The notes under the pieces are model-generated. The model was given only the letters and a program-made list of their open reading frames with translations, did not search any database and had not been told where the DNA came from. 60,109 nt of DNA from a virus, in IMG/VR virus record IMGVR_UViG_3300005842_000013, positions 1-60,109 of that record; one strand, given 5' to 3'. Shown one piece after another: positions 3,879 to 49,757 of the stretch (position 1 is the stretch's first letter; the number at the start of each line of letters is the position of its first letter). Made by a program: the position numbers and the translations under genes.

Positions 3879-4000
3879 TGCGATAGCGCGGCCAACACAA
3901 CCCACGCAACTAGGACGACAAGAGCAAACAGCCCGATCACGCCCGCCACACGCATGGGCGCTCGTTCATGCATGTAGGGCTGGTTCGAGTTCATCCACAT
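3875..4000 (-). CDS. Very small membrane protein
   Basis: A 41-residue open frame with a short polar N-terminus (MWMNSNQPYMHERAPMRV) and one strongly hydrophobic helix (residues about 18-39, GVIGLFALVVLVAWVVLAAL). Its stop overlaps the methyltransferase start as ATGA, which supports both. Alternative starts exist at the Met residues 3, 10 and 16. Function unknown; it could be a membrane anchor or regulator. Confidence 0.55.
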   Translation of the reverse strand: MWMNSNQPYMHERAPMRVAGVIGLFALVVLVAWVVLAALSQ

Positions 4001-4037
4001 ACGCCATGCACCACGATAAATCGCGGGATCTCGCTGC

Positions 4038-4280
4038 TCATGCCACTCCTGTTTTCACAAAGAATGGATCGCCCTCATCACACCATGAGGCGCATCCGCC
4101 ATCGAACGCGCGAATGACTGGCATCCACAGCTTGCCGTCTTCCAATAACACGCGATCGTCAGCTACCTGCATCATCTCGCCCGTGCGCTCGTTCTGGATG
4201 AGCGTCCCGATCGGCGCGAGGACGTCCAGTGAGATGTATCTCGCGTTCGGGTGGAGCTTCGTCAGATTGCGCGCAGTCAT
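4038..4280 (-). CDS. Hypothetical protein
   Basis: An 80-residue protein with a beta-rich core (RYISLDVLAPIGTLIQNERT, MMQVADDRVLLEDGKLWMPV) and a C-terminal region with two Cys and several acidic residues. Not recognised. It starts inside an ATGA overlap with the preceding gene at 4277-4280. Confidence 0.65.
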   Translation of the reverse strand: MTARNLTKLHPNARYISLDVLAPIGTLIQNERTGEMMQVADDRVLLEDGKLWMPVIRAFDGGCASWCDEGDPFFVKTGVA

Positions 4281-4483
4281 GCGTCCGCCTTGGCCTTCAC
4301 AAACTCACCGCACCAATCATCCTCAGACATCGCTGGTCGTTCAGCCGATGGTAAGCCGGCATTGTCCCTAATCAGGACTGGTGGAAAACGGTGACACCTC
4401 CAATACCCCATACCATCTCGCCTCCCATAGACGCAGGCGCCGCAACGCGCTTCGGTAATGACTTCGTCAAAGGTTGACCCCAT
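4277..4483 (-). CDS. Small Cys-rich (zinc-ribbon-like) protein
   Basis: A 68-residue protein with CGACVYGRR, WRCHRFPP and a late DDWCGEF, giving a C-x2-C plus C...C arrangement that could bind one zinc ion or cluster. Such proteins recur in phage operons without known role. ATG at 4483 overlaps the portal gene stop (TAATG). Confidence 0.65.
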   Translation of the reverse strand: MGSTFDEVITEARCGACVYGRRDGMGYWRCHRFPPVLIRDNAGLPSAERPAMSEDDWCGEFVKAKADA

Positions 4484-6174
4484 TAGGCCGCCTTCTGCCC
4501 AGCCACCGGAGCCGCTGCCGGCGGGATACCCTCTTCCTGCTGCGCCGCCGCCTGTGCGCCAGCCTTGGGCGTCTTGGCAAAGGCGGTGGTCAACTGCTGC
4601 AACCGTGCCGCGCGTTCCTGTTGTGGATCGGGCAGGGCCATCAGTTCCTTGGTGATCGCGCTCAATTGCGTATCATCCAGATTCGGCAGGAACTTCGACA
4701 GCAGGCTCAGCGCGAGTTCAAACAGGAACGTCTTGGACTGCCCCAACGGTAAGGCCAGTGCGGCCTGGGCCTGCTCGAGCATGTCGGCGAAGGGCGTCAC
4801 ATCGAACGTGCGGGTATAGACGATGGACGGTTCGGCGTTATCCCGTTCGCGTTCCCAGTTCGCCTCGCCATACATGGCCCGGAACCACAGCTCCATGATC
4901 TGATACTCAGCGCGTTCCAGCTTGTCCGCGTATGCCGCTAGGAGTTGGTTCATGTCCTCGCGCTTCAGTTTCATCGAGCCTTCGGATTCCGCATCGCGCG
5001 TATCGGATTCCCACGGAACCCCGGCTAGCCGGAAGATGGTCCGCAGGAGCCGCGCGATCTCGGTCTGATAGCTGGTGACGTTCCCCTGATCGGGGCTGAC
5101 GTAGCTGATGGCCGAGCCCGAGAACAGCACATTGGCCGTGCCCACCACCGCGCCCAGCAGTTCCTTGGCCTTCTCGACATCCATCGCCTGATCGCCCGTG
5201 CCTAACGGGACATTCAGGATGGAAAACGCCTGCTTGCGGAACAACTCCCGCAGTTCGCTGGTCAGGTTGTAGTGATCGATGAATAGCTGCGGGTCGAACA
5301 GCACCGACTTGCCGATCACCCGAATCAACGCGCGCTTGTTCGCGTACAGCATGACGACGGGCAACTTGCCCATGCCATGGAGCCCGGTACTGACGCCCTT
5401 CTGCCGCAGCTTGCCGGAGGGTGTCTTCGACTCATCGATCACCGTCCAGTCCGTCTCGGTGAGGTACCGTACTCGCTGGGTCTGCCCAGACTCGCCGCTC
5501 GTGCGCAGATCCGTGCGTCCCACGTATTCGATCAGCTTGACCTGCGTCAGGCAGCCGGTGTCCGTGGTGATCCAGTCCGGCATATCGAGCGGGGTGTAGG
5601 TGCGCAGATACGGCTGATTCAGTAGGACATCCGCTTGGGTTCGCGGAGCCGTCTCCATCTGCGGCTTATCGAGCACGATCGGCGTATGCCCGAAGACCAT
5701 CGCAATCGTCGCCGCATCATGCAGGTAGTCGGTCAGCGCCAGCCCGTCCCCGTCCACGTTCTCGCACCAGTCGAGCCACGCATGTTCACCCCCGCCCTTG
5801 ACCTTGCGCACGGGGGGCTGACGGAACAACGCGGCGACCTTCTGGTCCACAATCGTCGAGGCCACGTTCTCGTAGCGGGCGATGCGACGACGTTCGCGCA
5901 GCTTGGCCGTGGGCCGTGTGGGATTTGGATTCGCGGTATAGCCAGTGATCTTCGGGGTGGTCGGGTTGTCTGGGTTCGGTCCGTAGAGAGCGATCGAGTG
6001 ATCTTCCCACTCGCGCGGATGCGGGATGAGATACCCGCCATCGAGGAAGCCACCCGAGCCTTCGTACACGTGGGCGAGCGCCCGCCAGACCGGTGCCCAG
6101 ATGGAATACAACGGATGTGTCGGACCTAGGGTGGCCTGGTCCCCGGCGGCCACAGTGATCGGTAGATCAGCCAC
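4483..6174 (-). CDS. Portal protein (DUF4055-like)
   Basis: A 563-residue protein. The N-terminus has GGYLIPHPREW and then RIARYENVASTIVDQKVAALF, matching phage portal proteins of the DUF4055 type. Further on come a VGTANVLFSGSAISYVSPD stretch and the helical ESEGSMKLKREDMNQLLAAY region seen near the portal stem. The portal ring is the DNA gateway and binds the terminase. The C-terminus is Ala/Gln/Pro-rich. The start is GTG at 6174, overlapping the previous gene by 8 bases. Position after the large terminase fits the usual order. Confidence 0.88.
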   Translation of the reverse strand: MADLPITVAAGDQATLGPTHPLYSIWAPVWRALAHVYEGSGGFLDGGYLIPHPREWEDHSIALYGPNPDNPTTPKITGYTANPNPTRPTAKLRERRRIARYENVASTIVDQKVAALFRQPPVRKVKGGGEHAWLDWCENVDGDGLALTDYLHDAATIAMVFGHTPIVLDKPQMETAPRTQADVLLNQPYLRTYTPLDMPDWITTDTGCLTQVKLIEYVGRTDLRTSGESGQTQRVRYLTETDWTVIDESKTPSGKLRQKGVSTGLHGMGKLPVVMLYANKRALIRVIGKSVLFDPQLFIDHYNLTSELRELFRKQAFSILNVPLGTGDQAMDVEKAKELLGAVVGTANVLFSGSAISYVSPDQGNVTSYQTEIARLLRTIFRLAGVPWESDTRDAESEGSMKLKREDMNQLLAAYADKLERAEYQIMELWFRAMYGEANWERERDNAEPSIVYTRTFDVTPFADMLEQAQAALALPLGQSKTFLFELALSLLSKFLPNLDDTQLSAITKELMALPDPQQERAARLQQLTTAFAKTPKAGAQAAAQQEEGIPPAAAPVAGQKAA

Positions 6175-6910: not shown

Positions 6911-8202
6911 AAGAGATGCTCCATCCACACCGCCCCTGTTGAGACGCGTGGCTTCTGAACCGGCCATTCCTGATGGACCCAGTACCCACCAGCGTCTGAT
7001 ATATGGGTCAGCATGGCGTTCGTGGTTTTGTCGAGATCGCCGTTGTCTTTGAAGATGACCTGCTCGAGATCGGCAATGAGATGCACGCACGTCGGATCCA
7101 CGACCAGATGGCGCTTGCCGTCCATCGTTTCGCAGCGCGCATTGACCGCTGCCACCCGATCACGGACATGCGGGGCCGCATGTGGAATGCACCACGTCGC
7201 GCCCGGGAAGAGCTCGCGCAGGATGGCATGGTCGCTGGGACCGGTCGTCTTGGCAGATTTGCCGGACGGGTCGCCGTAGACGCGTATCTGGCCCGTCCAG
7301 TTCGCCTCCCGCAGTTTCTGCTTCACCGCCACCGCTGCCGCGCGTGTCGCTTCACCGCCGGCATGGGAGACCCACACTTCCCGCCAGAAGCGCGTCTCGC
7401 CGCCTGCGGATTGGCCGATCGTCGCCGTGGCAGGGTTGATGTTGAAGTCGAAGCTGACGGCTACAGGGAGCCCGCTGGTGAGCTGGACGGGGCGTACGTC
7501 GAGTTGTCGGGAGAACGCATAGTAGGCGCGGCCTGAGATTGCCTCGAAGCTTGCCTCCCACTCCTGCCGGAACGTCCGCGGGTCGGTGGTCTGTCGTGCC
7601 TCCTCGATTTCCGCAGGGTCCAGGGTCGGATTGTCGATGCTCCGGAATTGCCATGCTGCCCAGTTCGCCCACTTCGGATCTGGACTCTGTCCTCGCTGGA
7701 ACAGATCGTAGAAGTGATTGAAGCTCTTGGGCGTGCCGATGAACAGGGCGGGCGCCTTCCAGTCCGCGAGTGCCGGCCGGATCGCCTCGGTCCACGTCTG
7801 CGGCTTCATGTCGGCATACTCGTCCAGCACCACATACCTCAGCGCACGGCCGCGTAACGAATCGGGATCCTCCGCCCCGTGGAGGCGAATCTCCTGCCCA
7901 CCCCGCAATCTCACAAACAACTCGGATTCGTTCGGCTTCCCCGCGAGCCACGACGGGTCGATCGCGGCCTTCAGGTCCTCCCAGAAGATGTCCTTGGCGG
8001 ACTTCAGGGTCGGCGCGATGTACCAGTAGCGCCCCGCACCCATCTTCAGCGCCCGGGCGACGATGCCGGTGCGGGCCTTGTGGGTCTTCCCCCAGCGACG
8101 CCCAGCCACCAGCACACGGAACCGTGCCGGCGATTGATAGACCTGCGCCTGCCCCGAATGCAGCGCGAGCCGAACAGGCGGCTCACTGGTCGTCGCCGTC
8201 AC
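6907..8202 (-). CDS. terL: Terminase large subunit
   Basis: A 431-residue packaging motor. The ATPase half shows Walker A GRRWGKT (34-40), Walker B VVLDEYAD (124-131) and coupling motif IGTP (about 155-158). The nuclease half begins at SFDFNINPATATIG (Asp about 252), and VYGDPSGK supplies a later acidic residue. It cuts concatemers and drives DNA into the head through the portal. The start is GTG at 8202, overlapping the small subunit gene by 20 bases. Length is normal for the family. Confidence 0.93.
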   Translation of the reverse strand: MTATTSEPPVRLALHSGQAQVYQSPARFRVLVAGRRWGKTHKARTGIVARALKMGAGRYWYIAPTLKSAKDIFWEDLKAAIDPSWLAGKPNESELFVRLRGGQEIRLHGAEDPDSLRGRALRYVVLDEYADMKPQTWTEAIRPALADWKAPALFIGTPKSFNHFYDLFQRGQSPDPKWANWAAWQFRSIDNPTLDPAEIEEARQTTDPRTFRQEWEASFEAISGRAYYAFSRQLDVRPVQLTSGLPVAVSFDFNINPATATIGQSAGGETRFWREVWVSHAGGEATRAAAVAVKQKLREANWTGQIRVYGDPSGKSAKTTGPSDHAILRELFPGATWCIPHAAPHVRDRVAAVNARCETMDGKRHLVVDPTCVHLIADLEQVIFKDNGDLDKTTNAMLTHISDAGGYWVHQEWPVQKPRVSTGAVWMEHLL

Positions 8203-8488
8203 CCTTCCGCCCTTCGCCTGGCAACAGGAGATCGACCACCAGCGCCCGCATCGGCGTGTTAATGTCGATCGTCTCTTTGGGCTTGCCGTAGGCGTAGTGG
8301 TGGAGCATCGTCACGATAGCGGGATGGAGCCTGCCGCGGCGATATTGCTCGAGCATCTTCTTCTGGCCAGCCGCATCCTCGACGAAGGTTCTCGCCGCCT
8401 CACGAATGACCTGCGTCGCCTTGTTCGGCACCCCAGGAGTTCGCCCCGGAGACCCGCCACGTTTCAAGTTCGCCACATTTCGTGCCAT
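8183..8488 (-). CDS. terS: Terminase small-subunit-like protein
   Basis: A 101-residue protein with a basic Gly/Pro-rich N-terminus (KRGGSPGRTPGVPNKATQVI) and helices ending in LHPAIVTMLHHYAYGKPKE. The pattern GRPxGxPNK...LHPA....YG.P is common in small terminase-like phage proteins that lie directly upstream of terL, as here. It would recognise the packaging site. It overlaps the upstream gene as TAATG. Confidence 0.7.
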   Translation of the reverse strand: MARNVANLKRGGSPGRTPGVPNKATQVIREAARTFVEDAAGQKKMLEQYRRGRLHPAIVTMLHHYAYGKPKETIDINTPMRALVVDLLLPGEGRKGDGDDQ

Positions 8489-8730
8489 TACCGGTCTCTC
8501 TCGGATTCTCTGTCCGATGCGGCCCTCTTCCGACCCTTGGGTTTCTTTACCGCGTCTTCTGGGACCAGCGTGACGTAGAAGCCACCTTCATATTCATCGA
8601 GTCGTTCCAATAGTTTAGCGGCATCCTGTCGTGAGAGGAGGAGCGTCAGTCTTGCTTCGCCATCTCGATCGGAGCCGAGGCAGGTCCGGCCATCGGCTAA
8701 TTGGGCGAGGAAGACGATCGGATCACTCAC
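8488..8730 (-). CDS. Hypothetical protein
   Basis: An 80-residue protein with beta strands (DPIVFLAQLADGRTCLG, EARLTLLLSRQDAAKL, GGFYVTLVPEDAV) and a highly basic tail (KKPKGRKRAASDRESERDR). Not recognised. GTG at 8730 is preferred because it overlaps the preceding stop as GTGA. It is the first gene before the terminase pair. Confidence 0.6.
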   Translation of the reverse strand: MSDPIVFLAQLADGRTCLGSDRDGEARLTLLLSRQDAAKLLERLDEYEGGFYVTLVPEDAVKKPKGRKRAASDRESERDR

Positions 8731-8894
8731 AGGCCCAACCACAAGCGCCACGCCGCACGGGCGAGTCCGTTATAGGCGACCAGCAACCCCAAACCGATCA
8801 CAAGTGCGAGGAGCACGAACGCCGTCGCCGCGAGATCACCGCCTAAGGTGGCGTCTTCCCACATATCACGTAAGCGTTCTAGGAATGTCGGCAT
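8727..8894 (-). CDS. Small single-pass membrane protein
   Basis: A 55-residue protein with one long hydrophobic helix (residues about 20-43, AATAFVLLALVIGLGLLVAY) after an acidic amphipathic N-terminus. ATG at 8894 follows a GGCGG ribosome-site-like sequence; an ATG at 8903 is also possible. It overlaps the previous gene end by 16 bases. No function recognised. Confidence 0.6.
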   Translation of the reverse strand: MPTFLERLRDMWEDATLGGDLAATAFVLLALVIGLGLLVAYNGLARAAWRLWLGL

Positions 8895-9442
8895 AACCGC
8901 CATCGCTTCGATCGCTCGGCTTGGATCTGCTGGGCAGTCAGCCAAATGCAGCCGATTTGATGGCCGCCGTCAGGATCCTCAGCGATGTCTCTCCCTTGAC
9001 CGCAGAAGAAGCAGCGTTCGTCATCGTACATCCCATAGAACTCCCAGGGCGGATTCGCCGCGATCTGAAGCACTGACGCCTTCAGGGCATCCCGCTCCTG
9101 CTCCAATCCGGCGATGCGGCCGGCGGACTCGTTCAGCCGCTGCTCGAATCGAACCGATCGATCCTGTGCCTGCTCAAGCTGCTCGCGTAGGGCTTGGGCT
9201 TCTTTCGGTGAGAGGTAGCCTTCTTCGTGAAGTGCAGCCAACACCTTGTCGGCAGCAGGATCGCATCCACAATGCGGCCAATCGCAGTCTTGTGGCTCGA
9301 CCGGATCGCCACCATGGCGTGCCTTGCACTGGAATGAATCACGTCTGATGGCAGCCAACAGATCGCGACCAAGGTTGCCGTACCCATGGCTGCGCAGGAG
9401 CCTCGCCGCCTGTTCTGCGAGTTGGTCGAGACTGTCGCTCAT
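8879..9442 (-). CDS. Hypothetical coiled-coil protein with Cys clusters
   Basis: A 187-residue protein. Residues about 1-60 carry CDWPHCGCDP, the middle is a coiled coil (EAQALREQLEQAQDR, RIAGLEQERDALKASV), and the end has CFFCGQGRD. The coil-plus-Cys layout is shared with Ea22-like accessory phage proteins, but no family is assigned. Overlaps its upstream neighbour as ATGA. Confidence 0.65.
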   Translation of the reverse strand: MSDSLDQLAEQAARLLRSHGYGNLGRDLLAAIRRDSFQCKARHGGDPVEPQDCDWPHCGCDPAADKVLAALHEEGYLSPKEAQALREQLEQAQDRSVRFEQRLNESAGRIAGLEQERDALKASVLQIAANPPWEFYGMYDDERCFFCGQGRDIAEDPDGGHQIGCIWLTAQQIQAERSKRWRLCRHS

Positions 9443-12396: not shown

Positions 12397-12600
12397 CTAG
12401 TCCCCATTCCCCACCCCTAACGGTGCTTTCCCTAGAGACTGTTGTCCATCGCGAGAGGCACGCATCCGATCGGCTTCACGTTCGATCGCCTCATTCAACG
12501 ATTCGCGGTCAAGGCCCAGCCACCAGGAGCCGGCTTTCGGCTGCGGCTTCTGGTTCGCATAAGTCATGCGGGGCATAGTTTTCGAGGGATGACGAGGCAT
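12397..12600 (-). CDS. Hypothetical small protein
   Basis: A 67-residue protein: basic N-terminus, a WWLGLDRESLNEAIEREADRMR helix in the middle and a Gly-rich end. Not recognised. Starts in a TAATG overlap and ends adjacent to the ASCH-like gene. Confidence 0.55.
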   Translation of the reverse strand: MPRHPSKTMPRMTYANQKPQPKAGSWWLGLDRESLNEAIEREADRMRASRDGQQSLGKAPLGVGNGD

Positions 12601-12872
12601 TAGGCTGTCTCCTCCATCTCCCCAGCGCTCTGGTTAGATCTATTTCCACGCGGCGCATACCCGTTGATGACCGCGGTGATGTCGCCGGTGATGACCGCCC
12701 TGGTCACATCGACCATCACGTGATGCCGGATGTCCTTTTCCGCGGCTTCGATCGTCTGAATCAAGAGCGCGGTGAAGATGCACAGGCAATCGCCCATCAA
12801 CATGCCGCGAGCCTGGACCATGCGATCGACTTCTTCGATGTGGCCGTTCAACCGTCCCATGTCCACGTTCAT
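12600..12872 (-). CDS. Hypothetical helical protein
   Basis: A 90-residue, mostly helical protein (NGHIEEVDRMVQARGML, CLCIFTALLIQTIEAAEKDI, VDVTRAVITGDITAVI). Not recognised. ATGA overlap with the preceding gene supports the start at 12872. Confidence 0.6.
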   Translation of the reverse strand: MNVDMGRLNGHIEEVDRMVQARGMLMGDCLCIFTALLIQTIEAAEKDIRHHVMVDVTRAVITGDITAVINGYAPRGNRSNQSAGEMEETA

Positions 12873-13075
12873 GCGGCCACAGCCTTTCTCGCCTGCTCTT
12901 CCACCACTGCTAAGTGATGTGCTGCGATCTCGGTCTCTCTGATCACCAGTTCGAAGTCCTCCCAGTCCACGGGCTCATCGATCTCGATCTGTCGGATCAA
13001 GGGCTTGAGTTTCGCAGCAGCCTTGGTGAAGCTGCGTTTGGCTTCTGCGACGAGGAGACGATGTTGACGAGTCAT
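12869..13075 (-). CDS. Hypothetical helical protein
   Basis: A 68-residue, almost wholly helical protein (RLLVAEAKRSFTKAAAKLK, WEDFELVIRETEIAAHHL). Not recognised. ATG at 13075 overlaps the preceding stop as ATGA, so the longer upstream frame is rejected. Confidence 0.62.
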   Translation of the reverse strand: MTRQHRLLVAEAKRSFTKAAAKLKPLIRQIEIDEPVDWEDFELVIRETEIAAHHLAVVEEQARKAVAA

Positions 13076-33165: not shown

Positions 33166-33461
33166 CAGATCGGCTCCAAGGTCTCATCACTGAAGGACAG
33201 GGCTGACGTCAGGCTCTCTGCGGAGACCGACAGGGATGGCGCCACGGTCTCAGCCGAGAACGACAGGGCTGGCGTCAGCGTCTCGCCCGTGAAGGTGATG
33301 AAGTCGTAAACGATGAGCTGACCGGCCGACAGCCCCGCGTAGGTGTAGGCGACCTGCTGTCGATCGGCCTGGCTGACCACGCCGTCAGGGGCGGGCAAGA
33401 TCGACAGGGCCGTAAACGCCAGCCCAATCGCCGAGGCGCGCTTATTCCTTGTGTCGATCAT
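33165..33461 (-). CDS. Small virion-type protein with 11-residue repeats
   Basis: A 98-residue protein. The C-terminal third repeats an 11-residue unit E-T/S-L/V-x-P/S-A/S-L-S-F/V-S-A/D three and a half times (33168-33284). The first part is unrecognised. The start ATG overlaps a TGA (TGATG) that ends the remnant fibre frame, which marks the original gene junction before the endonuclease insertion. Confidence 0.62.
   Translation of the reverse strand: MIDTRNKRASAIGLAFTALSILPAPDGVVSQADRQQVAYTYAGLSAGQLIVYDFITFTGETLTPALSFSAETVAPSLSVSAESLTSALSFSDETLEPI
33168..33284 (-). repeat. 33-base coding tandem repeat
   Basis: Three full 33-base units and a partial fourth encode the 11-residue repeats of the 33165-33461 protein. 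The units differ at several bases. A hendecad length is notable since the neighbouring fibre is also rich in short Ser-containing repeats. Confidence 0.6.
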
Positions 33462-33505
33462 CAGGCGAACTCGTCACGCACGAACGTGGTAAACTGCGTA
33501 GCACC
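33461..33505 (-). pseudogene. Remnant 3' end of fibre gene
   Basis: On the minus strand the frame GATQFTTFVRDEFA-stop ends at 33461 and overlaps the ATG of the next gene. It is similar to the actual end of the 34068-36716 fibre, DGTVFTRDQFS-stop. It is the likely original fibre end, split off by insertion of the endonuclease gene. Confidence 0.55.
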
Positions 33506-34087
33506 GTGACTGGACCCAAACCCAAAGATTGGACTGGCATACGTCAAGGACGCTTGACGTTTATCGCATTCTCTCATCGGCGGCCAAATGGTGCCCACTT
33601 TTGGCTGGCCCGTTGTGAATGCGGCAAAACTACGATCACCAGAGCGGGTGGGCACACACAATCCTGCGGTTGCCTGCTTGATGAATGGCGCGAAAGTGGT
33701 CAGGCGCGCGTTACGCATGGCCTTCTTCGTGGTGGCAGGCCGCCCGAATATCACGTCTGGAACAATATGAAGCGGCGCTGTTATGCTCCCAAGACGAGCA
33801 ACTATCATCGATATGGTGGACGCGGAATATACGTTTGTGATCGATGGCGAGAGTCCTTTTCCACATTTCTCAGTGACATGGGCAACCGGCCCTCGGGGCA
33901 TCATTCGATAGAACGCTTGGACAACAGCGGTCCCTACGCACCAGGAAACTGCGTTTGGGCCACCGCAACGACTCAGGCGCGTAACAGGCGAGCCGCTCCG
34001 GCGAGACCATCTCATCCGAATAGCCTGAAAGCTCTTCGCGATCATCAATGGACTCCGGCAAAGAAACTCACGAGAACTGGTCCCTAG
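33506..34087 (+). CDS. HNH homing endonuclease-like protein, antisense in late operon
   Basis: A 193-residue protein. ARCECGKTTITRAGGHTQSC, YHVWNNMKRRCY, YGGRGIYVCDRWRESFSTFL, IERLDNSGPYAPGNCVWATA and QARNRR match the free-standing phage HNH/AP2-like homing endonucleases. It runs opposite to its neighbours and its 3' end overlaps the fibre 3' end by 20 bases. GTG 33506 is preferred; no ribosome site is clear. Mobile intron-less homing gene. Confidence 0.85.
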   Translation: MTGPKPKDWTGIRQGRLTFIAFSHRRPNGAHFWLARCECGKTTITRAGGHTQSCGCLLDEWRESGQARVTHGLLRGGRPPEYHVWNNMKRRCYAPKTSNYHRYGGRGIYVCDRWRESFSTFLSDMGNRPSGHHSIERLDNSGPYAPGNCVWATATTQARNRRAAPARPSHPNSLKALRDHQWTPAKKLTRTGP

Positions 34088-36716
34088 TGAAGACCGTCCC
34101 GTCGTCGCTGGTGACCGCGCTGGCAATCGTATCGTTGTTGGCATCGTTTTTCAGGCGCTGTAAGGTCGCGGTCTGCTCCACGCGATTGCGCGTCAGGGCG
34201 GCCATCCAGTCCACCTTGGCCGCCAGTGTGTCGCCATGGCCCACCACGCCCGTCGGTTCGGTGCCGGTCCGCAGGACGCCATGTGCGGCCACGACGCTCC
34301 GGATATCGCTCATGGACGAGGCCCCGACTTCCACGCCGGCCTGCACTGCCGAGTAGAGGTCCGATTGCACGCCGCTCATGACGCCCAGGTCGCTTGAGAC
34401 GTCGCTCAGCAGGGAGTAGATATCCGAGACGCCCGATTGCGTCACCAGCAGGCGGCTGGCGTTCTGCCGGACCCCACTCAGGATGTCGCTCAGGTTCGAA
34501 GCGATCTCGAGAGCCACCGCCGAGGCTATGTCGCTGATGGCGCTCTGGGTCAGCGTGCCGGCCGCAATAGCTGATCGGATGTCGCTCATGCTGGACGCAT
34601 CCACCGGCACCCCGGCGGCCAGGGCTGAGATGACATCCGAGACCAGCGCGGAGAGCTGCGAGTCCGTGGCCACCCGTTTCGGCACACGTGACTGGAAGTC
34701 GCTCTGCAGGTCCGACAGCAGGCTGTAGACATCCGAGATGCGGCTCTGGTTCAAGAGCACCCGGCTATTCGTCTGCTGGGCGGCTGAGGCCGCATCAGAC
34801 GCCATCGAGGCCACCAGGACCAACTGCGAGCGGCCGGCGGGCTCGAGCGGGATCCGCGAGTTGAAGTTGCTATTCAAGTCCGACAGCATCGAATAGGTAT
34901 CCGAGGCTTGAGACTGAATCAGCAGCACCCGCGAGTTCGCCTGTTGCGCGGCCGACAGAATGTCGCTGAGGCGTGAGGCCAAGACCTGGTCCACCCGGCT
35001 GGCGATGTCCGAGATGTCCGACGTCGTGATCGTGGTCACCGCCGCGGCCACTGCGCTGGCAATGTCGCTGATGTCGGACTGCGTCAGGTTGACGGTCACG
35101 GCCTGAACGGCGGATCGGATATCGCTCATCACGGACGTGTTCAACTGCACGCCCGTCGTCGCGAGGAACGAGAGTAGATTCGACTCCACGTCCGAGAGCT
35201 TCGAGGCCAGATCCGACGCCTGCGACTGGACCACCAGCACGCGGCTATTCCCCTGCTGAGCCGCACTGGCCGCATCCGACGCGGTGGACTGAATCACCAG
35301 AAGCCGCGAGGCATTCTGGCGGATGCCGGAGAGCATGTCGGACACATCAGAGGCCAGCGCGGCCACGACCCTGGATGATATATCGGACATGTCCGACGCG
35401 GAGACCGACGCCGTGATGGCGCCCATTGCGGACTTCAGGTCCGACGCTAGATCTGATAGCTGCGAATCGGTCGCGACGCGCTTCGGGACGCGGCTCTGAA
35501 AGTCGGAGAGAAGATCCGACACCATCGAGTACGTGTCAGAGGCTTGCGATTGGATCACCAGTGCGCGGGAGGCGGTCTGCCTGACGCCTGACAAGATGTC
35601 CGAAATGTCCGACGCCAACGCCGCGACGACACGCGAGGAGATGTCGGACATGTCGGAGGCCGACACCGCGGCAGTCACACCCGCAATCGCCGACTTCAGA
35701 TCGGACGACAGGTCGGAGAGCTGGCTATTGTTGGCGACCAGCTTCGGTACGCGGCTCTGGAAATCGGACTGCATATCCGACAGCATCGAATACGTATCCG
35801 AGGCCTGGGACTGGATCACCAAGGCACGCGAAGCCGTCTGCCGTACTCCTGAGAGGATGTCCGAGATATCCGAGGCAAGAACGGCTTGGACGCGCGAGGC
35901 AATATCCGAAATGTCAGAGACGGTCAGCACACCAGCAGGACCGGCTGTGATGGCGCTACGCAGATCCGAGAGCGACGACGCGTTCAACTGCACGCCTGTG
36001 ACCGTCATCAGCGACAGCAAGTCGGAGAGCAGATCGGACGTGGACGATCGGATGTCCGACAGAAACGACTGCGCAACGAGGAGCCTCGAATTGACCTGTG
36101 TGCCGACCGCGTGTCCCCAGACCTGAGACGCCACGTCAGACATCGCGGAGGTTGTCAGGATCACGCCCGCCACGATCAACGACCGCAGGTCGGAAATCAG
36201 ATCGGACAACTGTGAGTTGTTCGCGATCAATTTCGGTACGCGGCTCTGAAAGTCGCTCTGTAGATCGGAGACATTCGAGCGAATATCAGACAGGAAGGAC
36301 TGCGCCACCAACACGCGGGAATTGACCTGCTGGGCTGCGGACGCCGCATCGGACGCCATGGACTGGATGACCAACAGCGCCGACATGATGTCGCTGTCGT
36401 CATTGTCCACGCAGGACCACTGCATGATCTGCTCAGCGCAGCCCGTCACCCCAGCAAAGCGAGCCTGCATGACGTCGAAGTTGTTCTCCGTCGTCTTGAG
36501 CGTGACCCGGAACACCCCCGATCGGACAAGGCTAGCCAGCTTCGAGATCGCCCCGCTCGTCATCGCCGCAGACGTCCCGGTGTTCATGCCGTAGAACTTG
36601 CGGGTGCCGGCATTGAACTGGCTCGCTGTCACGGCCGACTTGATCGACACGAAGTCGACCGAGTCCACCATGGGAACGAACAGTTGGTGCAGTGCCCCCT
36701 TTTTCGGCGCGGCCAA
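34068..36716 (-). CDS. Long Ser/Asp-repeat tail fibre-like protein
   Basis: An 882-residue protein. The first 110 residues are non-repetitive (likely virion anchor), then about 680 residues with recurring MSDI, SDILS, SRxLVIQSQASD and FQSRVPK elements (the last occurs five times, one degenerate as FNSRIPL), and a 90-residue non-repeat tail. It looks like a trimeric coiled-coil or rod-type fibre. It is very Ser- and Asp-rich. The start is TTG 36716 behind a GGAGG site. Preceded by methyltransferase and glycosyltransferase genes. Confidence 0.78.
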   Translation of the reverse strand: MAAPKKGALHQLFVPMVDSVDFVSIKSAVTASQFNAGTRKFYGMNTGTSAAMTSGAISKLASLVRSGVFRVTLKTTENNFDVMQARFAGVTGCAEQIMQWSCVDNDDSDIMSALLVIQSMASDAASAAQQVNSRVLVAQSFLSDIRSNVSDLQSDFQSRVPKLIANNSQLSDLISDLRSLIVAGVILTTSAMSDVASQVWGHAVGTQVNSRLLVAQSFLSDIRSSTSDLLSDLLSLMTVTGVQLNASSLSDLRSAITAGPAGVLTVSDISDIASRVQAVLASDISDILSGVRQTASRALVIQSQASDTYSMLSDMQSDFQSRVPKLVANNSQLSDLSSDLKSAIAGVTAAVSASDMSDISSRVVAALASDISDILSGVRQTASRALVIQSQASDTYSMVSDLLSDFQSRVPKRVATDSQLSDLASDLKSAMGAITASVSASDMSDISSRVVAALASDVSDMLSGIRQNASRLLVIQSTASDAASAAQQGNSRVLVVQSQASDLASKLSDVESNLLSFLATTGVQLNTSVMSDIRSAVQAVTVNLTQSDISDIASAVAAAVTTITTSDISDIASRVDQVLASRLSDILSAAQQANSRVLLIQSQASDTYSMLSDLNSNFNSRIPLEPAGRSQLVLVASMASDAASAAQQTNSRVLLNQSRISDVYSLLSDLQSDFQSRVPKRVATDSQLSALVSDVISALAAGVPVDASSMSDIRSAIAAGTLTQSAISDIASAVALEIASNLSDILSGVRQNASRLLVTQSGVSDIYSLLSDVSSDLGVMSGVQSDLYSAVQAGVEVGASSMSDIRSVVAAHGVLRTGTEPTGVVGHGDTLAAKVDWMAALTRNRVEQTATLQRLKNDANNDTIASAVTSDDGTVFTRDQFS

Positions 36717-36718
36717 TG

Positions 36719-37381
36719 CTAGCCTCCAGTCACGACGATCAGGCCCTCAGCGAACAAAGGCCGCCCGTTATACCAGCAGAACTCGGCGATGGAATATCCA
36801 GCGCGCTCGAGCAGCACGCTCAGTGTTTTCCAGGAATACCACGCGCAATGGTCACGGTTCACGACCTCTGTCCCGCGTGCGAGCTGAGCGCGCCCAGCTT
36901 CAGCGAATGCATTCGGCACGGTGATGATCACCGGCACACCTTGATAACGTGTGCGCAGACGTCGTAGGAATTGGCCAGGGTTGCTCAGATGCTCGATCAC
37001 CTCACCGCAGACGATCAGCTCGATGCCTTGGTAGAACGGCAGGTGCAGGTCCTGATTGTCCAGATCGATGCCGGTCACGCCCTCGCCATCTTCGCGGTCC
37101 CAGCCGTACGTCTTCGCAGCGACCGCCACGATCCGATCGTGCATAGGGCCGGACGCCCCGACGTCTAGCACCGTGCGGCCCTTACAGCGTTCCAGGATGA
37201 ACTCCGATCGATCGACCACCTCGGCGATCGGCACGGCATGCAGCATCTTCTTGGCGTACGCCTCCGACACGGGCTTGGCCTGTCCGAGTTGGCTGCGGAG
37301 ATCGTCGATCGACGCATACGCCGTAGATAGATGATGATTGACCTCATCACATGGACGAAGCAGGGAGATGTCGTGACTCAC
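36719..37381 (-). CDS. Class I SAM-dependent methyltransferase
   Basis: A 220-residue protein. RTVLDVGASGPMHDRIVAVA is motif I, VTGIDLDNQD the second strand, and ELIVCGEVIEHLSNPGQFLR a motif II-like block, as in the Methyltransf_23 group. Such enzymes often cap glycans by methylation. GTG 37381 directly follows the stop of the glycosyltransferase gene. Substrate inferred only. Confidence 0.78.
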   Translation of the reverse strand: MSHDISLLRPCDEVNHHLSTAYASIDDLRSQLGQAKPVSEAYAKKMLHAVPIAEVVDRSEFILERCKGRTVLDVGASGPMHDRIVAVAAKTYGWDREDGEGVTGIDLDNQDLHLPFYQGIELIVCGEVIEHLSNPGQFLRRLRTRYQGVPVIITVPNAFAEAGRAQLARGTEVVNRDHCAWYSWKTLSVLLERAGYSIAEFCWYNGRPLFAEGLIVVTGG

Positions 37382-38329
37382 CTAGAGATACCTCTCGTAA
37401 ATCGCCGTAGCTTGTCTCACCGTCTCCTGGACATCGTGCTTGCGTTCACCCCATGCCCGGAAGTTGAACTGGCCCTTGGCTTCGTGCGCCTTGATGATCG
37501 CATCAGCCATCGATTCTGGCGTGAAGTCGCAACGGAACTCGTATTCCTCATCCCGGTAGCCGGCACCAATGAACGCCTTCCCTGCCCCGAATGCCTCGAT
37601 GCCCCTGGCGTACAAGGGAAACAGCCCAGAGACCACGATGTCGGCGCGGTTGTACAGGAGGTTCACCTCTTCGTCTTTGACCGGACCCATCAATGATCGC
37701 ACGAACGTATGCCATTTCGCGTGCGCAATCAGCGCGCTGAACGTCTCATACATCCGCTTGTCTTCGACATTAAAAAGATGCATCCGCGCATTCGGCAGGA
37801 CCTGCGACACGCGCTCCATCGCCAGCAACGGAATCAGCGGGTTGCGCTGCCCTCGCCAGTGTTCGCAGTAGAGCACCGCCGGATCGCCAGAGAGCCGTGA
37901 TGCCGGATTCTTCGGATCATGCGCCGGCACGTCCAGAGGCGTGAACCGTTGTAGGTCGATACCCTTCGGTACGACGTACGTGCGCTTGATCGCGTTCCAT
38001 GCTGACCACTCCTCTTTGCGCATGGCGATGAACGCCTCGCAGAGTGGCGCAAGGTCCACGATCGCCTTCATCGACACGCCATTGCCCACGCTTGAGAGCG
38101 GCTCGCCGTGGCAAAACATGAACTTCGGAATCCGATCGTGATACCGCCTGGGGCTGATCTGGCTGTGGATGATATGCACGTCCGGCTTGTCCACACCGCC
38201 ATACAAGACCGTCTCGTCTGGCTGCCTGATCTCGACACCGTGCCCCTGCTGCTCCTCGGCCTTCACCAGTTCTAAAGTGGTGAAAGCCAAACCCGATTTT
38301 TCACGCCGTAAAAAATGGAGCAGATTCAC
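37382..38329 (-). CDS. GT-B glycosyltransferase (family 4-like)
   Basis: A 315-residue protein. It contains TYVVPKGIDLQRFTPLD, DPAVLYCEHWRGQRN, and LYNRADIVVSGLFPLYARGI, followed by EAFGAGKAFIGAGYRDEE. This E-(x)7-like end is typical of GT4 enzymes. It lacks membrane helices. GTG 38329 overlaps the LamG gene (GTGA). It is likely to glycosylate a phage or host product. Confidence 0.8.
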   Translation of the reverse strand: MNLLHFLRREKSGLAFTTLELVKAEEQQGHGVEIRQPDETVLYGGVDKPDVHIIHSQISPRRYHDRIPKFMFCHGEPLSSVGNGVSMKAIVDLAPLCEAFIAMRKEEWSAWNAIKRTYVVPKGIDLQRFTPLDVPAHDPKNPASRLSGDPAVLYCEHWRGQRNPLIPLLAMERVSQVLPNARMHLFNVEDKRMYETFSALIAHAKWHTFVRSLMGPVKDEEVNLLYNRADIVVSGLFPLYARGIEAFGAGKAFIGAGYRDEEYEFRCDFTPESMADAIIKAHEAKGQFNFRAWGERKHDVQETVRQATAIYERYL

Positions 38330-39114
38330 GCAGCAAGCCCCTTCCGAATCCCCAAGTTCGTCCCCAATCTGATCTGATGGATGTTCTTAGATGCCTTGCC
38401 CCCACCGCCAGGAAATGTCAAACTTGGCCCCGTGCTCAACACTGGGGCATCCACCAGTGTGCCCGTGCGCGAGCCGTTCTCGTCGTTCTGATTCGTCCTG
38501 AAACTCGCCCAGAAATCGCCGGTCGTGACATAGTTCCCGATCGACATCCCGGACGCATGGCTGGCGATCGTCCCGTCTGTCACCGCACGTCCGAACAGTA
38601 AGCCCACATCGGCATAGAGCCCATGCGAGAACAAGGTCGGCGAGCCTGACTCTTCGTCGTAGCCGAGACAGAACCTTTGATCATTCGTCCCCAGGCTCGT
38701 CGGAAAATCAGCCGTATTCGAGGCCCACGACGTGATCTCCGTACCGCTGATCCACAACCGCACCCGATCGGTTGCTGAGGCTTGCGTCCCGTCATAGACC
38801 ACCCAAACGGCCGTCCATGTGCCAGTCGAGAGCACACCGCCGTTCGTCACCTTCTCTGGCGTCGACGACCCATTACGGAACGCCAAATAGAGGGCCGTGG
38901 CATCGGAGGCCGGATGTTGCACACCGAATCCGGTCGTATTCCCAGCGCCACTGGTCGCAGCGCCGATACACGACAGGATCATGTCGTAGAACGTCGAGGA
39001 TGTGGAATTGATCCAGAACGCGATCGTCAGCTTCGTGACCCCGTTCAACGAGGAGATATGCGCCCAATTGATCCCGTCGTTCGATCCGTCGAAGTTGTAT
39101 GCGCCGTTCGCCAT
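38326..39114 (-). CDS. LamG-like lectin-domain virion protein
   Basis: A 262-residue protein. NFDGSNDGINWAHIS, then VTKLTIAFWINSTS, TAVWVVYDGTQAS, RLWISGTE and LYADVGLLFGRAVTD follow a LamG/concanavalin-like fold with its jelly-roll strands. The C-terminus has a Gly-rich motif and a basic tail. Virion carbohydrate binding is likely. Overlaps the glycosyltransferase gene. Confidence 0.78.
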   Translation of the reverse strand: MANGAYNFDGSNDGINWAHISSLNGVTKLTIAFWINSTSSTFYDMILSCIGAATSGAGNTTGFGVQHPASDATALYLAFRNGSSTPEKVTNGGVLSTGTWTAVWVVYDGTQASATDRVRLWISGTEITSWASNTADFPTSLGTNDQRFCLGYDEESGSPTLFSHGLYADVGLLFGRAVTDGTIASHASGMSIGNYVTTGDFWASFRTNQNDENGSRTGTLVDAPVLSTGPSLTFPGGGGKASKNIHQIRLGTNLGIRKGLAA

Positions 39115-41902: not shown

Positions 41903-43063
41903 TCAGTGAACGATTTCCAAGACGCGGCAACCCGGTAGCCCATAGCTCTCCCCGGTCAGCCGCCAACCCGCGCCGATACTCACGATGCCGGGATCGTCGC
42001 CGCCGACGATCACCACGCCGCCGTTCGATCCGTTGATGCCGGCGTACGCCCGCACGGCTCGTCCTTCATCGAAGTTCTGCACGGGTGACGAGGCCCAGCC
42101 TCCATGTCCGTTGCTGTTCTGGTAGCTACTCCGACGTCCGTGCAAATAGCCATCCATCGTCGTAAAGCCATGCACGAAGGCATCCGCGCTCGCATCCTGT
42201 GTTGGGCCGACTGGGTAGTTGATGTGCAGGCCATCTTCGAAGTGATAGATGGCGCCTACCTCGAACAGTCGCGAGAGTGCGCCCAAGCAGAGGAATGCGG
42301 CCGGATCGTTGAGCCGTTGCCCGGGCGTCCCAGGCTCCGCTGCGCCGATGGGTTCATTGTTGACGACGGCCTTCCCCGTCGCATCGGCAACCGCCTGCAT
42401 CTCGCGCACGCGACGGACTTGGTTCCATATGTCCCGTCCGCGATCGAGATGGACGGTCACGTAGTCGCCACCGCCGAACATGGTCGATTCGTCGTCTTGG
42501 GCGGCCCCGTAGGCAATCAAGCCGGTATACCCAGCGCCACGCGCGATAGCCCTCAGCTCGGCGAGGAAGTTCGCATCGGTCAGCGCCGGATTCTGGGTTG
42601 GGTGATACAACTCGTTCCCCAGCTCAAGCCCGAAGACTTCAGAACGTCCTGCGCAGATGGCCGCCACCATCTCGACATGCTGGCGAATCTCGTCTTTCGA
42701 CATGTTGGCGGTATCGGTGCAGGCGGTGACCTCGCATCGCAGGCCACGCGATTTGCCCATGTCTAGCACGCTCGGTAAGGCTGCGCGGGCCTCTGACGCA
42801 CTGGCCCCATCGAACGTCAGATTGCCGGCGAACACGCGAAAGCCGTTGAAGCCCTTCTTGCGGCCCCAGTCCAGGAACGCCTCGCGTGGCTTGTTGGCGC
42901 CGAGGATCGACAGCGCCGAAAAGAACAGCGGCCGGAACACCCCCCCGTCGTCCACGAACAGCTTGCCCTCGCGACGTACGAAGCCCTTGATAGCAGGCCC
43001 CGACACTATCGACGCACTACTGCCTCGACCGGCGAGCAGCAGGAACAGATCCGCAGCCTTCAC
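41903..43063 (-). CDS. Glycoside hydrolase (GH-A clan-like), candidate depolymerase
   Basis: A 386-residue protein. RPLFFSALSILG (44-55), GFNGFRVFAG (71-80), ELGNELYHPT with the Asn-Glu acid/base pair (150-151), and VNNEPIG with Glu 237 as likely nucleophile. These match a (beta/alpha)8 clan-A glycosidase. It likely cuts host polysaccharides, as virion depolymerase. GTG 43063 overlaps the previous stop (TAGTG). Confidence 0.72.
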   Translation of the reverse strand: MKAADLFLLLAGRGSSASIVSGPAIKGFVRREGKLFVDDGGVFRPLFFSALSILGANKPREAFLDWGRKKGFNGFRVFAGNLTFDGASASEARAALPSVLDMGKSRGLRCEVTACTDTANMSKDEIRQHVEMVAAICAGRSEVFGLELGNELYHPTQNPALTDANFLAELRAIARGAGYTGLIAYGAAQDDESTMFGGGDYVTVHLDRGRDIWNQVRRVREMQAVADATGKAVVNNEPIGAAEPGTPGQRLNDPAAFLCLGALSRLFEVGAIYHFEDGLHINYPVGPTQDASADAFVHGFTTMDGYLHGRRSSYQNSNGHGGWASSPVQNFDEGRAVRAYAGINGSNGGVVIVGGDDPGIVSIGAGWRLTGESYGLPGCRVLEIVH

Positions 43064-49063: not shown

Positions 49064-49489
49064 TTAGTGCTCCGGTCCTCGATCGTGAATCTCCAACCGG
49101 AATCGCCGCGGCTTCATGTTGCGGACGACGTGCATGAAGGAAAAGATCGTGATGGGCTTGATGATATAGCCTGCCGCGCCCAACATCCGCGCCGTGTTCT
49201 CAGATTCTTTGTCTTCAGCCCGTGACAGCACCACGAGTTGCGTCCGATCCAGATACTTGTGATGCTCGCGGATCTCTTTGATCAACTCGAAGCCCGACAT
49301 CCCCGGTAAGACGAGGTCGATCAGAATCAGCCCCGGACGCTCAATCTGTCCGGTATGGAGCCGCATCAACAGTTCTTCCCCACGCGAGAGGTAGGTGATC
49401 GGGTTATCCACCAGGTCCTCGATCTGCGTGCGAATCACCCGACGATCTGAGGGGTCATCATCCACCACCACAATCGGTACTGGCTGCAT
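49064..49489 (-). CDS. Free-standing response-regulator receiver (CheY/Rcp1-like)
   Basis: A 141-residue protein. VVVDDDPSDRR gives the acidic pocket (D10-D12), ILIDLVLPGMSGFEL the phospho-acceptor Asp 58, VVLSRA Ser 89, and YIIKPI Lys 111. No output domain. It matches stand-alone receivers such as Rcp1. GAGGG precedes the ATG. It lies between a membrane coil and the endolysin; no kinase gene was seen. Confidence 0.82.
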   Translation of the reverse strand: MQPVPIVVVDDDPSDRRVIRTQIEDLVDNPITYLSRGEELLMRLHTGQIERPGLILIDLVLPGMSGFELIKEIREHHKYLDRTQLVVLSRAEDKESENTARMLGAAGYIIKPITIFSFMHVVRNMKPRRFRLEIHDRGPEH

Positions 49490-49496
49490 GGTGCCC

Positions 49497-49757
49497 TCAC
49501 TGAGAATCCGAGTCTTCGAAGACTTTGGAACGCCCGACAATGCGGACCAAATCTCGGACACGTTCGCCGTTATCTCGCTTGTATTCGGCGAGTTCTTGCT
49601 GGAGGTGTCCCAACTTGACATTGATAACCTCAACATCCGACTTCCGCTCGGCTTGTGTTTCCTTGACTTTGCCCTCGAGCCGCACTAGCCAGACAACCGT
49701 CGCGATCCCGGCCAGCAGCAGCGTGATGGCTTCCCCGGCCCCGATCTGGATCGACAT
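49497..49757 (-). CDS. Membrane-anchored coiled-coil protein
   Basis: An 86-residue protein. N-terminal helix (AITLLLAGIATVVWLVRLEG) then a coiled coil (VINVKLGHLQQELAEYKRDN). It resembles inner-membrane spanins or haemolysin XhlA-like proteins near lysis genes. The function is inferred from layout. Confidence 0.6.
   Translation of the reverse strand: MSIQIGAGEAITLLLAGIATVVWLVRLEGKVKETQAERKSDVEVINVKLGHLQQELAEYKRDNGERVRDLVRIVGRSKVFEDSDSQ

Follow-up and report, generated by a model that had tools for sequence, protein, structure and literature searches.

Why would a tailed phage encode a glycosyltransferase (GT) and a methyltransferase (MT) packed against the gene for a serine-rich fibre? The locus that raises this question lies in IMGVR_UViG_3300005842_000013, an IMG/VR record whose entire 60,109 bases are analysed here (the window); it comes from a tailed phage and has genes for a portal, a terminase, a tape measure and minor tail proteins. 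We consider it probable that the locus is a self-contained module whose GT O-glycosylates the shaft of the fibre, with the MT in most cases capping the attached sugar. The initial annotation had already proposed a GT dedicated to the fibre repeats, and the comparative genetics support that part of it, in that GT and fibre are never found apart where both sides are readable, repeat-less fibres lack the GT and the shaft bears a serine stripe. Its other elements fare less well, methylation being only usual and the neighbouring LamG protein not a fixed part of the block.

Conservation of the block across phages

We searched IMG/VR for the block from four sides, starting from the GT, from fibre N-terminal domains of type A and type B, and from a DNA pattern encoding Ser-Asp (SD); near-copies are counted once in the lineage totals. 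All fifteen loci reached through the GT have an MT and a Ser-rich fibre (15-19% Ser, 33-56 SD) adjoining or within a few genes. The type A domain led to six contigs, all with GT and MT, and the SD pattern to one new contig, again with both. Further contigs were reached through the type B domain, including L050, where GT, MT and fibre are all present and the GT is split by the ends of an apparently circular record. The three-gene block that the initial annotation suggested looking for in other phages thus exists, in the same order, in fifteen lineages including that of the window; two more lineages have GT and fibre only, so that the GT is encoded beside the fibre in seventeen. Because the block is conserved across fifteen lineages, chance association is excluded.

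Within the fifteen-lineage group, GT identity to the window GT is 53-66% where measured, except for one relative at 93%; only the end of the GT survives on the L008 contig. Other genes intervene within the block in L021, L029 and L061. L029 has a more elaborate block, with a second methyltransferase inserted between GT and MT, an unknown protein also lying between GT and fibre (7098-9330 for the two) and a hexapeptide-type acyltransferase following the fibre (12511-12924), extras that would be expected of a glycan-decorating cassette.

The converse arrangement, in which GT and MT occur with no repeat fibre, was looked for in IMG/VR and not found, as no GT of this family lacks a Ser-rich fibre where both sides are readable. 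Nor did the fibre-first searches of IMG/VR find a repeat fibre without the GT wherever upstream DNA exists. Two candidates, L058 (a repeat fibre with no GT) and L051 (whose fibre matches that of L050), were set aside because their fibres lie at a contig edge, and L009 (28% MT) was dismissed for its unrelated MT context. Fibres without the repeats offer a control. L056 and L057 share the fibre end domains without Ser repeats and have no GT of this family. A 207-residue protein of Microcystis phage Mvi-Yong1342-1 likewise shares the end domains, lacks Ser repeats and is accompanied by no GT of this family; the complete record of this phage has no gene annotated as a glycosyltransferase and has a sugar O-methyltransferase elsewhere.

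We further note that fibre N-domain types A and B are intermingled on the GT tree, five label changes being required across all three groups, and that L028 and L020 have fibre N-domains 85% identical with GTs 62% identical. The mixing suggests recombination between fibre and GT without loss of their pairing. A counterpart of the window terminase can be detected in one other carrier and of its tape measure in four, many of the records being fragments. Since other genes differ among carriers and the N-domain types are mixed, the GT/fibre pair appears to stay together while others change. Simple shared ancestry of the pairing is weakened by this mixing, with a single origin still conceivable. Among 50,697 GenBank phage records, queries with fibre, GT and MT returned no real relative and matched only the fibre end domains, and neither the fibre N-domain nor the GT had a match in a scan of GTDB genomes. 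These comparisons of gene content point to a strong coupling between the GT and the Ser-rich fibre.

The serine stripe of the fibre shaft

The fibre had been described as carrying hundreds of Ser/Asp repeats, which is too strong: its 882 residues contain 159 Ser, 75 Asp and 59 SD dipeptides, the latter mostly 3-21 residues apart and none consecutive, so that there is no uninterrupted Ser-Asp tract. Instead of a tandem SDSDSD arrangement, the dipeptides follow a heptad pattern that is degenerate (spacings 3, 4, 7, 21), and Ser in the shaft recurs at spacings 3, 4, 7, 14 and 21. In a null model that shuffles only polar residues among polar positions, 95 Ser pairs are expected at spacings 3/4/7 and 102 at spacings 1/2/5/6, where the window fibre has 161 and 28, respectively. 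The same direction, enrichment at the former and depletion at the latter, is found in all 13 SD fibres tested. As tandem repeat duplication inflates Ser-pair counts, this agreement across diverged fibres weighs more than the size of the effect. The heptad placement is a property of Ser itself, beyond mere polarity.

The phase of this placement is also consistent across fibres. Each SD fibre tested has its Ser stripe some 160 degrees away from the hydrophobic one on a 3.5-residue helical projection, and Lys and Glu together make up 0-5% of SD fibres. Between the repeats of the window and its close relative L003, conservation reaches 95% for Ser and 96% for Asp, compared with 81% for the non-Ser residues as a whole; 57 of the 124 conserved Ser have a changed codon, including 10 switches between TCN and AGY. 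Such a pattern would be expected of acceptor serines exposed in a row.

These results bear on the simplest alternative, that the fibre is an ordinary low-complexity coiled coil and that GT and MT are unrelated passengers of a late operon. Low-complexity repeats are common in phage fibres, as are passenger genes in late operons; even so, we find this account improbable, because the pair is retained across fifteen lineages despite recombination and different phage backbones and because the placement of Ser exceeds the shuffle null.

At its N-terminus the fibre is 98% identical to that of L003 over the domain, with a ratio of nonsynonymous to synonymous substitution rates (dN/dS) of 0.03. The C-terminal module (Table 1) is wholly different from that of L003 (10000-10343), which suggests an exchange of tips, and a related module ends a protein of Mvi-Yong1342-1. 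Weak fibre matches in Pfam, PHROG and NCBIfam (FAP206, DUF496, CcrZ and others) were dismissed as low-complexity and, where a cut-off is given, below it.

The two enzymes and their possible acceptors

The GT4-type identity given to the GT by the initial annotation is borne out by family and fold. Glyco_trans_1_4 (PF13692) is matched by 10 of 14 members of the GT family (best 1.6e-9), and K122, R159 and E245, which we take to be at the places expected for GT4, are invariant in the family alignment. An AlphaFold (AF2) model built on the 14-sequence alignment, with a predicted local distance difference test score (pLDDT) of 89, has two Rossmann-like domains in a GT-B fold matching retaining GT4 structures. 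Its best fold matches in the Protein Data Bank (PDB) are MshA, PimA, GlgM and BshA, with expect values (E) down to 1.9e-15 and template modelling scores, normalised to the query, mostly of 0.65-0.77; a PDB sequence search with the GT gave no convincing match. On this model the GT can be confidently predicted to be a retaining GT4 (GT-B) enzyme.

The MT was likewise correctly called class I, as it passes Methyltransf_23 with 37.7 bits against a cut-off of 27. Its nearest match is the putative methyltransferase 3cc8 (E 1.2e-11), and its start is uncertain, with homologues beginning about 20 codons past the annotated GTG. The dN/dS values of 0.07 for the GT and 0.11 for the MT, between the window and a close relative, indicate that both are under purifying selection.

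Another reading is that the GT glycosylates phage DNA, as in T-even phages. A viral DNA alpha-GT does appear among the fold-level likenesses, far down the match list. The best PDB fold matches are instead small-molecule, lipid and polysaccharide GT4s, the gene adjoins the fibre, and no member of the thymidylate synthase/hydroxymethylase family (PF00303) was found in the window, so that we give this possibility very little credence.

Phage GTs with a role at the host surface are well established, and an integrase-like gene in the window makes a lysogenic role conceivable. GT and MT might then modify host surface glycans in serotype conversion or superinfection exclusion, like phage gtr clusters. 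Those clusters include membrane partners (flippase, bactoprenol GT), and no gtrA/gtrB-like partners were seen in the block, whose annotated neighbours are structural and lysis genes. GT and MT themselves lack a membrane span (best 19-residue hydropathy 1.5 and 0.9, respectively), they are packed within the operon of late structural genes, and it is the Ser fibre that accompanies them across lineages. A host-surface role is therefore unlikely, and both it and DNA glycosylation are less likely than O-glycosylation of the shaft.

The main rival acceptor is found on the other side of the GT. A LamG gene was correctly placed directly upstream (Laminin_G_3 passes its Pfam cut-off), and the encoded protein is not a fixed part of the block, its head being swapped freely while a C-terminal tail is kept. 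The window and L024 have a LamG head, the heads of the other members scanned match no Pfam family above cut-off, and in L003 the head of the tailed protein and the fibre C-terminus are both exchanged. The tail, of about 25 residues (GGRTTKNTRxxPLGxExGM), forms the end of a protein encoded ahead of the GT in 15 of the 16 lineages whose upstream DNA could be read; its carriers include the window and L017, L018, L019, L020, L021, L022, L024, L026, L028, L031, L054, L055 and L061. A further match to the pattern, in L034, was dismissed as an antisense chance match.

The GT could thus modify this lectin-like protein through its tail, with the Ser fibre as a mere neighbour. In agreement with such a role, the tail is retained in lineages without an MT and while the head changes, and the stop codon of the tailed protein overlaps or nearly touches the GT start in most lineages. 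Against it, the tail is not found in L029, the sole exception, which retains GT, MT and Ser fibre; it offers few Thr, most of which the window version (KASKNIHQIRLG) has lost; and the Ser stripe and the absence of the GT beside non-repeat fibres are left unexplained. We therefore regard modification of the tail as doubtful. A broader arrangement is tentative and, in our view, rather unlikely as well: a horizontally mobile module of uncultivated phages in which a GT, with optional methyl- and acyltransferases, coats a Ser-stripe coiled-coil fibre and a partner protein with swappable lectin-like heads docks to the fibre or its glycan via the conserved tail, allowing exchange of heads and fibre tips with the glycan scaffold staying in place.

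Glycosylation of the shaft would proceed as follows. The fibre would form a long coiled coil, with serines, the residues to which sugars naturally attach, set in a stripe (usually as Ser-Asp) on the outer face of the shaft where Lys/Glu are usual. During infection, the soluble GT4-type enzyme encoded next to the fibre would draw a sugar from a host nucleotide-sugar and attach it, with retention, to many shaft serines during fibre synthesis or assembly. In most lineages the MT would O-methylate the sugar as a cap. The outcome would be a bottle-brush, sugar-coated virion fibre, with the coat protecting it, solubilising it or altering adsorption; the change of host range or the shielding envisaged by the initial annotation may be among its effects. 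We infer the identity of the acceptor (the fibre) and of the attachment residue (Ser), the action of the MT on the sugar, the place of the fibre on the tail rather than the head of the virion and the benefit to the phage, and likewise the linkage and the order of modification.

Several points weigh against shaft glycosylation. The relatives that carry the block are all metagenomic contigs. The window GT itself has no Pfam match. The AlphaFold model of the fibre is not a confident one (pLDDT 37), so that its coiled coil is deduced from the periodicity of the sequence. The control set of proteins without repeats is small (n=3) and supportive rather than conclusive, and strongly supported branches of the GT tree force only one label change per group. 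The conserved tail of the upstream protein provides an alternative acceptor. Finally, L054 and L055 have no MT, and in them a divergent GT (39% identical) adjoins a Ser/Thr-rich fibre; as these two lineages have GT and fibre without it, methylation is probably a usual but dispensable add-on. On balance, the conserved gene pairing suggests that the fibres of these phages receive a sugar coat from phage-encoded enzymes.

Gene context and known glycosylation systems

The four packed genes come after the tail genes and a holin (Table 1). The GT, MT and fibre are consecutive open reading frames, as first reported, and the close junctions hold as well: a GTGA overlap of the LamG stop and GT start, TAG-GTG between GT and MT, and a 2-base gap (TAG-CA-TTG) between MT and fibre.

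Table 1. Positions of the fibre, enzyme and LamG genes and their parts in the window
Feature	Position	Strand	Remarks
Ser-rich fibre, 882 residues, TTG start	34068..36716	-	N-terminal domain, Ser/Asp heptad shaft and swappable C-terminal domain
Fibre N-terminal domain type A, residues 1-104 (MxxPKKxxLxQ..MVDSxDF)	36405..36716	-	From alignment
Ser/Asp heptad shaft, residues 105-800	34317..36404	-	Ser stripe opposite hydrophobic stripe; Lys+Glu ~2%
Fibre C-terminal module, ~residues 811-882	34071..34286	-	Unrelated module in its place in L003
Class I S-adenosylmethionine methyltransferase (Methyltransf_23)	36719..37381	-	
Predicted retaining GT-B glycosyltransferase (GT4-like), proposed fibre-shaft O-glycosyltransferase	37382..38329	-	
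LamG (concanavalin-like) protein	38326..39114	-	Stop overlaps GT start; head domain swapped among relatives
Conserved C-terminal tail of LamG protein (GGGGKASKNIHQIRLGTNLG...)	38329..38394	-	Family consensus GGRTTKNTRxxPLGxExGM

Three other features of the region are recorded here. Small endonuclease-like proteins lie antisense at differing places in related phages (33449-34087, plus strand, in the window; 3960-4724, minus strand, in L002) and are probably mobile; they match no Pfam family above cut-off and have, by eye, what we take to be HNH/AP2-type motifs. A 386-residue protein (41903-43063, minus strand) has no Pfam match, is 94% conserved in a relative and presumably resembles a glycoside-hydrolase barrel, again judged by eye. 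A response-regulator receiver domain (PF00072, E 1.5e-17) at 49064-49636 (minus strand) lies within the tail gene cluster, which is unusual for a virion operon.

Among bacterial systems, serine-rich repeat adhesins with GtfA/GtfB have substrate and GT encoded side by side, as here, whereas no GtfB-like chaperone or accessory secretion genes were seen here and the repeat chemistry is different. The staphylococcal SdgA/SdgB, also dedicated GTs for Ser-Asp-rich proteins, attach N-acetylglucosamine to such proteins on the cell surface and protect them from proteolysis (PMC3794999). They are two GTs acting on long SD dipeptide repeats on cell walls, unlike the single GT, usually with an MT, encoded beside a heptad-spaced, coiled-coil-like phage fibre. 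SdgA/SdgB are not among the best 50 fold matches of the GT nor in the PDB sequence search, and no direct comparison was made.

Among phages, virion glycosylation is established for the mycobacteriophage Che8 and its relatives and for cluster O phages, which have three GTs and an O-methyltransferase (PMC11600133, PMC11256854, citing Freeman et al. 2023). Phage GTs, sometimes with a methyltransferase, modify virion proteins there as proposed here; the mycobacteriophage targets are capsid and tail-tube proteins and the tandem GTs lie downstream of the O-methyltransferase, whereas here one GT4 adjoins a Ser-stripe fibre. GT queries matched none of the 50,697 GenBank phage records, mycobacteriophages included, and the GTs were not compared directly. 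In Rhodococcus cluster CB phages a GT and a methyltransferase are inferred to glycosylate the virion; in Peregrin they are separate genes, 60 and 49, with no fibre linkage described in the passage on them (PMC13313380). No report of a fibre-dedicated glycosylation module was found in the open-access literature, most subscription papers lying outside that search. Virion glycosylation and SD-repeat glycosylation are thus already known, and a fibre-dedicated module would be a new version of them.

Phage virion glycosylation is known mainly from mycobacteriophage capsids and tail tubes. If the module works as proposed, it would place phage-made glycans on an appendage likely to meet hosts and the environment, which would matter for adsorption, for resistance to proteases and for immune visibility. 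The combination of GT4, MT, Ser-heptad fibre and GGRTTKNTR tail would then serve as a signature that predicts glycosylated virions in metagenomes.

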